Source: Collinsella sp. AF23-4AC (GTDB lineage Bacteria; Actinomycetota; Coriobacteriia; Coriobacteriales; Coriobacteriaceae). Taken from it: a stretch of DNA of 58,559 nt. The notes beneath the pieces were generated by a model that worked only from the letters and a program-made list of their open reading frames with translations, had not been told where the DNA came from and searched no databases. Of this stretch, positions 51,757 to 52,651 are shown in pieces (position 1 is the stretch's first letter; each line of letters starts with the position of its first letter). Location of the stretch: assembly GCF_003462685.1 (NCBI RefSeq), contig NZ_QRVE01000012.1, positions 1 through 58,559 on the forward strand. The letters run 5' to 3'. The translations under genes were made by a program, and so were the position numbers.

Positions 51757-52128
51757 CTACCGCTCGGATTCGGAGACAATTTGTCTACAAGCTCGTTCCA
51801 GCGTAGGGAACTCCATCGTCACTGCATCCCAAACAACCGAGCGGTCGACATTGCCGTAATCATGCGCAAGATAATTTCTCATGCCGATAATTCCACGCCA
51901 TTCGATTTCGGGATGAAGCCGCTGCGAGCGTTCCGACAATTTGCCCGCTTCTTCCGTCACCCTAAGCGCACACATCAAAAGGGAGTCCGCCAACGCCCTC
52001 GTCCGCACGTCATTCGCATGCAGAAACTGGTCCTCGGTGATATCAAAAGCCTTGATGCGCTCGTTCGTTTCGGAGATAGCCTCCAAAACCTCTTGGGCGC
52101 GGAGGCCGTCTGACTTACGCGCGATCAT
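51757..52128 (-). CDS. HepT-like HEPN toxin (DUF86 type)
   Basis: 123 residues, all-helical HEPN fold predicted. The catalytic RX4HXY motif is clear: Arg84-NYLA-His89-D-Tyr91 (GMRNYLAHDYG). In studied MntA-HepT systems HepT is an RNase and the Tyr of this motif is modified by the MNT partner. Overlaps the upstream antitoxin gene by 14 bases, the usual arrangement. GGAG eight bases before ATG 52128. Confidence 0.9.
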   Translation of the reverse strand: MIARKSDGLRAQEVLEAISETNERIKAFDITEDQFLHANDVRTRALADSLLMCALRVTEEAGKLSERSQRLHPEIEWRGIIGMRNYLAHDYGNVDRSVVWDAVTMEFPTLERACRQIVSESER

Positions 52129-52609
52129 AAAGGATCACTCCTTCGCGCTCGATTACCGCGGCAAGATCGTCATCAAGATAATCGCTCGAGACAAGGTCAA
52201 CCTGCCTTCCGGTTTCCTTGCGCACTGCCTCACCAAACGCCGATAACGCGAAAAGACCAAAGCCCTGATCGCGATCGACTTCGAGACGCAAATCGATATC
52301 ACTATCTGCACGCGCCTCGCCACGGGCATACGATCCAAATAGGATCACGGTTTTGATGGCGGGAATCGGGCTGGCTGCCTCGCGGACGGCGGACTCAATC
52401 TGGGCAGTATCCAAAATGCCCGCCGCGGCGCTTTCGCTCGCAGAACTTTTACCGAGTGAAGGCACAAACGGCAGCGAGCGCTCGCGCAACATCTGCCTCA
52501 TGAACATATTGACCGCAACGGACGAAGTCATGCCAAGCTCTTCGCACAGCTCGGCAAATGAGTCTTTAATTGACGAATCCACTCGAACACTCAGCACAGA
52601 CGCAGCCAT
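52115..52609 (-). CDS. RelB/DinJ-type RHH domain fused to MNT nucleotidyltransferase antitoxin
   Basis: 164 residues. Residues 1-50 (SVRVDSSIKDSFAELCEEL then GMTSSVAVNMFMRQMLRE and LPF) match RelB/DinJ ribbon-helix-helix antitoxins. After a linker (51-70), residues 75-160 are a minimal nucleotidyltransferase: FGSYARGEARADSDIDL, that is Gly92-Ser93-x10-Asp104-Ile-Asp106, with Asp138 as third acid. MNT partners of HEPN toxins usually lack a DNA-binding part, so this fusion is unusual; the RHH part may repress the operon. AGGAGG precedes ATG 52609, with a palindrome GACATTGTC at 52625-52633 in the promoter. Confidence 0.88.
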   Translation of the reverse strand: MAASVLSVRVDSSIKDSFAELCEELGMTSSVAVNMFMRQMLRERSLPFVPSLGKSSASESAAAGILDTAQIESAVREAASPIPAIKTVILFGSYARGEARADSDIDLRLEVDRDQGFGLFALSAFGEAVRKETGRQVDLVSSDYLDDDLAAVIEREGVILYDRA

Positions 52610-52624
52610 GGATACCTCCTGTAT

Positions 52625-52643
52625 GACATTGTCTATATATTAT
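52625..52643 (-). promoter_or_regulatory. Promoter and palindrome before RHH-MNT gene
   Basis: GACATTGTC (52625-52633) is a 9-base palindrome between the ribosome site and an A/T-rich TAATAT-like -10 (52636-52643 area). Likely operator for the RHH domain. The -35 is uncertain. Confidence 0.5.
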
Positions 52644-52651
52644 CACACAGA

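Follow-up and report, generated by a model that had tools for sequence, protein, structure and literature searches.

MNT antitoxins are reported to have no DNA-binding domain (PMC7641770), and Makarova et al. suggested a possible DNA-binding component encoded in trans (PMC2701414). A two-gene unit of the gut bacterium Collinsella sp. AF23-4AC raises the question of whether a single antitoxin could both modify its toxin and repress its own operon. The unit lies on contig NZ_QRVE01000012.1, and the window is the whole stretch of DNA analyzed, 58,559 nt in length. An earlier note on this DNA had read one gene as an antitoxin fusing RelB/DinJ RHH and MNT nucleotidyltransferase domains and its neighbor as a HEPN toxin. 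Both open reading frames (ORFs) were found on the minus strand where that note had placed them, and the coding features are as follows.

52115..52609, minus strand: fusion antitoxin gene, RelB/DinJ RHH plus MNT nucleotidyltransferase, 164 aa
51757..52128, minus strand: HEPN (HepT-like) toxin gene, 123 aa; 14 nt are shared with the antitoxin gene
52460..52609, minus strand: RHH half, residues 1–50; model helices at residues 12–25 and 29–42, monomer model without a strand
52418..52459, minus strand: variable linker, residues 51–64; pLDDT <50 at residues 50–63, varying in more distant pairs
52115..52417, minus strand: MNT nucleotidyltransferase half, residues 65–164 plus stop codon
52292..52336, minus strand: GSX10DXD catalytic motif, residues 92–106, intact in 29/29 aligned sequences
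52196..52198, minus strand: codon of Asp138, invariant in 29/29 aligned sequences
51856..51879, minus strand: RX4HXY motif, R84...H89-D-Y91, read directly from the sequence

Profile searches divided the antitoxin much as had been proposed, into a RelB/DinJ-like segment at residues 1–50 and a nucleotidyltransferase at residues 75–160. Residues 4–48 matched Pfam RelB (37.6 bits, cut-off 22.4), and the protein also exceeded the cut-off of NCBIfam RelB_DinJ (TIGR02384; 55.8 bits, cut-off 45.65). Residues 82–163 matched Polbeta (PF18765; 44.7 bits, cut-off 26.9) and residues 76–156 NTP_transf_2 (PF01909; 44.6 bits, cut-off 21), and the two halves, when profiled separately, returned the same leading families as the whole protein. 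The catalytic motif reads GS-X10-DID, and Asp138 is presumably the third carboxylate. The predicted structure of the fusion was of modest confidence (pLDDT 73, pTM 0.50); the top Foldseek and VIA matches of its MNT half were the MNT antitoxins 8xeo, 8xeh, 7ae9, and 7bxo. For the neighboring gene, the HEPN assignment of the earlier note was confirmed by a match to HepT-like (PF01934; 59.9 bits, cut-off 23.5) and by the motif, which reads R-NYLA-H-D-Y. RX4HXY was present in 24/25 aligned HEPN sequences, the exception (P0153) having neither the motif nor the Tyr. The model of this protein had a pLDDT of 91, and its ten best Foldseek matches were all HEPN/MNT entries, with probabilities of 0.98–1.00 and E values of 0.035–0.16, none reaching 0.001; a search of the HEPN sequence against solved structures gave no match with E <0.4. 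PADLOC matched the antitoxin to candidate models labelled PDC only and gave no match for the HEPN protein. The two proteins are relatives, not members, of the NCBIfam equivalogs MntA (NF047752; 50.3 bits for the antitoxin) and HepT (NF047751; 31.1 bits for the HEPN protein), both scores lying below the cut-off of 60.

The pair thus has an MNT protein with GSX10DXD, a HEPN partner with RX4HXY, and adjacent genes with the antitoxin first, which is the arrangement of HEPN/MNT (HepT/MntA, type VII) systems. In SO_3166/SO_3165 of Shewanella oneidensis, a system of this type, the MNT gene likewise comes first and overlaps the HEPN gene, and GSX10DXD, RX4HXY, and the MNT fold are likewise found; however, no DNA-binding domain is predicted for SO_3165 (139 aa), whereas the window protein carries an N-terminal RelB/DinJ RHH domain and fusion genes of its kind are accompanied by a promoter element. 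The antitoxin shares its N-terminal RHH domain, at a score above the family cut-off, with RelB/DinJ (DinJ-YafQ) antitoxins, but it has a nucleotidyltransferase in place of their toxin-binding tail, and neither that tail nor a RelE/YafQ partner gene was found. Because the TIGR02384 match ends near position 61 of the 85-position model and the partner is a HEPN protein, the antitoxin was not filed as a RelB/DinJ system. That the protein is a double antitoxin, also neutralizing a RelE/YafQ toxin, is hardly credible: profiles assign the first half to RelB/DinJ and NCBI calls the relative P0007 a RelB/DinJ antitoxin, but with the match stopping near position 61 much of the toxin-binding tail is absent, and no RelE/YafQ gene is among the neighbors of the antitoxin gene, which are the HEPN gene and, as identified by eye, glnA and a LacI-type gene.

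The ORF at 52115–52609 (minus strand) is a true and old fusion. Both domains were present in 88 of the 120 relatives among the matches listed (hand count), down to 48% identity, and 15 of 65 genomes of the family have one fusion locus each (L001–L015), although in L014 the first residues and the promoter have been replaced. A frameshift or assembly artefact joining two genes was ruled out on the strength of this recurrence. When the fusion was sought in other members of Coriobacteriia, the class to which Collinsella belongs, a second RelB type was found in addition to these 15 genomes (L017, L135, and L137). At E 1e-10, both halves were matched in only three of 296 genomes of the phylum (G046, G063, and G064), which belong to the family of the nearest genome. 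One match each was obtained in plasmid and phage records, confined to residues 1–48, and five loci were matched in viral contigs, none extending into residues 1–50. Among the names found, databases name the fused proteins after the first half only (RelB/DinJ, as for P0007), which conceals a HEPN/MNT system.

In L001–L005 and L031–L035 (the latter labelled Collinsella aerofaciens), as in the window, the module is flanked by glnA and a LacI-type gene, and neither gene was found in the flanks of L006–L015 (≤1.5 kb) or L036 (4 kb). The module thus occupies different genomic places in different genomes.

The association of the two genes also bears on which partner is the toxin. The 11 best matches of the HEPN protein in 64 genomes each adjoin a fusion gene, and the 11 fusion loci that retain a HEPN gene have the same two-gene order, antitoxin first. 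No HEPN gene was seen at the other four (L005, L008, L013, and L014), with about 180 nt of contig remaining for this judgment at L008. At L005 (G006:C1), flanked by glnA and the LacI-type gene, the HEPN gene has been lost except for its first codons and the antitoxin gene is intact. Loss of the HEPN gene alone is consistent with HEPN as the toxin. The opposite polarity, with the nucleotidyltransferase as toxin and HEPN as antitoxin, was the one first proposed for MNT-HEPN pairs by Makarova et al. 2009 (PMC2701414), but it is very improbable here: four fusion loci keep the MNT gene and show no HEPN gene, the 11 closest HEPN genes include no reverse case, and HEPN is the toxin in the studied pairs (PMC7641770, PMC4621449).

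What the RHH half might bind was approached through the sequence upstream of the fusion gene, which has the following features.

52620..52628, minus strand: promoter element TGTCATACA, predicted operator half-site, conserved across fusion genes
52641..52650, minus strand: CTGTGTGATA, imperfect inverted partner of TGTCATACAG (52619–52628), spacer 12
52639..52644, minus strand: -10-like GATAAT, preceded by TG, weak
52614..52619, minus strand: Shine-Dalgarno-like GGAGGT, read directly from the sequence

TGTCATACA was invariant in 10/10 non-redundant fusion-gene upstreams, 10–18 nt ahead of the start codon, and the surrounding sequence of the same upstreams was otherwise dissimilar (0.31 bits per column from 45 to 15 nt upstream). 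This set was formed without L001–L005, which are near-copies of the window, and without L014 with its replaced promoter. Because the upstreams were aligned on TGTCATACA itself, shuffled sequences are the proper control; in 2,120 shuffles the exact element never occurred, one mismatch was seen in 0.4%, and two mismatches in 9%. Within 75 nt upstream, the closest match was exact in all 11 representative fusion genes of the window's type (the window and L001 included; L002–L005 and L014 left out), as against 3–5 mismatches in all 23 unfused MNT genes, taken from viral contigs and from genomes of the class and the phylum. L004 has one mismatch. The CopG-like fused genes described below came within 0–2 mismatches in 10/10 cases (three exact, three with one, and four with two), and in the remaining nine fused genes, which belong to neither of these two types, the element was missing (2–4 mismatches). 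L144 and L154, the starts of which are unclear, were left out of the mismatch and palindrome comparisons. Among the matches listed for PF04221 (30 loci), TGTCATACA was exact in 9/10 fused loci and had one mismatch in the tenth, compared with 1/20 exact and 2/20 with one mismatch in the other loci, a group that includes L125 (RelB-ABC protein); several of the loci in this comparison are near-copies.

A longer form of the site, the 14-mer TACAATGTCATACA, had 25 matches with at most one mismatch in 64 family genomes, and its reversed control had none. Thirteen lay at fusion promoters, one of them on the opposite strand as the inverted half of L006; three lay at stand-alone relB genes and nine elsewhere. 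The eight exact matches were all at RelB-type genes (seven fusions and one stand-alone). Each of the three stand-alone relB genes is followed by a YafQ-type toxin gene; two of these ORFs matched YafQ with 112 and 117 bits (cut-off 30), and the third is near-identical. The fusion thus has its site in common with genuine dinJ-yafQ operons. Within the window by itself, the 14-mer does not stand out, with one match within three mismatches and 1.49 expected.

These distributions, together with the conservation of the two halves, help to weigh what the RHH half does. One alternative is that it is a passenger, with TGTCATACA read by another regulator or acting in an RNA leader. In its favor, TGTCATACA is close to the ribosome site and overlaps with the promoter region, and it is missing from fused genes in other lineages; the -10 or the ribosome site may account for part of the footprint. 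The -10-like GATAAT is weak, since one was found and 0.8 are expected in shuffles. However, in each of the 11 pairs compared the RHH halves were more alike than the MNT halves (for example 92 vs 57% identity, 90 vs 73%, and 90 vs 62%; in the three most distant pairs, 57 vs 51–53%), which indicates that the RHH half is retained and is no passenger. As TGTCATACA is, in addition, absent from 23/23 unfused MNT genes and common to dinJ-yafQ operons, we regard the passenger explanation as unlikely. Similarly little weight is given to the idea that the RHH half mainly dimerizes the antitoxin and fixes the stoichiometry of the toxin complex, with DNA binding a minor matter. RHH domains are dimers (PMC10440598), and the MntA complex studied is a hetero-octamer with two MntA (PMC7641770), but TGTCATACA accompanies the window's fusion type, which scaffolding does not predict. 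Binding of TGTCATACA and repression by the RHH half is most likely the function that these sequence patterns reflect.

The earlier note had placed the operator in a palindrome, GACATTGTC. This palindrome exists (GACAATGTC on the strand of the gene, 52625–52633) and overlaps TGTCATACA, but it is whole only in the window and the near-identical L001, L002, L003, and L005, whereas L004 and more distant loci differ, and it was rejected as a conserved operator. It is TGTCATACA that is conserved, and some members also have an inverted partner of it: these partners were significant in L001 (p 0.03) and L006 (p 0.02), and the repeat CTGTGTGATA/TGTCATACAG of the window was not (p 0.59). In a wider scan with 60 simple shuffles per gene and, for many genes, start codons set by hand, the best palindrome within 75 nt upstream reached p ≤0.05 in 10/30 fused vs 3/23 unfused genes, which is weak as proof of operators. 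When only those palindromes that end ≤30 nt from the start are counted, the figures are 8/30 fused vs 0/23 unfused genes, a split picked after seeing the data.

The locus is probably a HEPN/MNT module with an antitoxin that AMPylates the toxin and also acts as repressor of its own operon, a reading that draws on sequence comparison and on studied relatives. In those relatives (PMC7641770, PMC11586414), AMPylation of the HEPN Tyr by the MNT protein silences the HEPN RNase, and in the Legionella pair the RX4HXY residues were reported not to be the catalytic site. By analogy, the operon would be type VII-like, the HEPN protein would be an RNase toxin, and the MNT half would add AMP to Tyr91 of RX4HXY and so silence it. 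The RelB/DinJ RHH half, as a dimer, would bind TGTCATACA over the promoter and repress the operon, with transcription set by the level of the antitoxin or of the antitoxin–toxin complex. A coupling of chemical neutralization and transcriptional control is speculation.

The earlier interpretation as a whole is partly supported: its domain split, the intact motifs, and a promoter element linked to the fusion are in agreement with the sequence. Enzymatic and transcriptional control in one protein would not be a first case: for SO_3165, which is an MNT antitoxin but has no DNA-binding domain by prediction, binding to its own promoter and repression of it were reported (PMC4621449), and the protein was later reported to be an adenylyltransferase (PMC7641770). 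SO_3165 was also reported to still neutralize a Tyr104 mutant of SO_3166 (PMC4621449); later, neutralization was argued to rely on modification (PMC7641770). The novelty lies in the attachment of a dedicated DNA-binding domain to an MNT antitoxin and in the recurrence of such a fusion. In the open-access literature, at the level of titles and the starts of abstracts among the matches listed, no paper described a fusion of an MNT antitoxin to RelB/DinJ or to any other domain that binds DNA; Songailiene et al. 2020, another main HEPN-MNT study, lies outside this scope. The same fusion does not appear in the excerpts of PMC2701414, PMC3710099, PMC4621449, PMC6929052, PMC7641770, PMC10440598, and PMC11586414, and PMC12839542 gave no passage. 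With a DNA-binding domain in cis and a defined candidate operator, the regulation of a type VII operon becomes directly testable.

Comparable fusions are found in other systems. HicB is not known to be a nucleotidyltransferase, and HicB systems have a different toxin from the window pair. HicB antitoxins fused to RHH or Xre likewise join an antitoxin domain that is considered not to bind DNA to one that does (PMC2701414). In the paREP1 HEPN-RHH fusions of Pyrobaculum, one of the two components of a HEPN/MNT-type system is likewise fused to RHH, but the RHH domain is carried by the HEPN protein, with no MNT gene in the operon, (PMC2701414), whereas in the window it is carried by the antitoxin.

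Among genomes of the family and class, MNT proteins carry several other N-termini. The second RelB type (L017, L135, L137) scored 40.2 bits against PF04221 in L017, and a search with this type found both domains in 51 of the 120 relatives among the matches listed (hand count), those with organism names being Gordonibacter and Collinsella tanakaei, both Coriobacteriia. The labels of all N-termini other than RelB rest on matches under the cut-off (DUF6364, 16.9 and 15.5 bits; DUF6290, 13.8; RHH_1, 19.2; MazE, 13.0) or were given by eye, and one CopG-like piece had no profile match. They comprise CopG-like RHH (L018 = L072, and also L019, L067–L071, L074, and L138–L140), RHH_1-like (L080, L147, L151, and L152), and AbrB/MazE-like (L073) N-termini, and one resembling an excisionase-type HTH (L078). 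Behind 12 of the 19 genes with other N-termini that were in the tree, an ORF with the HEPN motif was found.

This tree was built from 56 MNT domains, and the window's type formed one group in it (99/97). A single origin of the window's type and the second RelB type was rejected (AU p=0.009), as was one group of all RHH types (AU p 0.0009); these tests were chosen once the tree was known, and its alignment has few columns. The CopG-like genes (three changes) and the second RelB type (two changes) are not single groups, and the AbrB-like row falls among CopG-like rows. By these comparisons, the fusion of RHH or other DNA-binding domains to MNT appears to have arisen more than once, which suggests that parts have been exchanged between type II and type VII antitoxins. 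A tentative extension is that MNT antitoxins repeatedly capture promoter-plus-DNA-binding cassettes of type II systems, here an operator and RHH domain from dinJ-yafQ, and that transcription may respond to whether the toxin is AMPylated. If cassette capture were true, type II transcriptional and type VII chemical control would be combined in one protein.

Several further observations were made. Upstream of L073 (G237:C5), the N-terminus of which matched MazE at E 0.1, a perfect 16-bp palindrome, TACCAAGCGCTTGGTA, ends 10 nt ahead of the start. Two CopG-like RHH-MNT genes also have long palindromes upstream: TTGTATTGCAATTGCAATACAA in L070 (G125:C1) and one with 11-bp arms, CTGACATGTAT/ATACATGTCAG, in L138 (G004:C3). 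Cmr1-MntA (438 aa; PDB 9z7q, 9z7v, and 9z7x), judging by its name another MntA fusion, weakly matches the MNT half (E 0.0029). At L030 (G049:C11, 1444–2385), a RelB/DinJ RHH domain (PF04221, 35.7 bits) stands ahead of an ABC-transporter ATPase (PF00005, 116 bits) in a single ORF, and L125 (G051:C17) is a 296-aa ORF with a start like that of L030.
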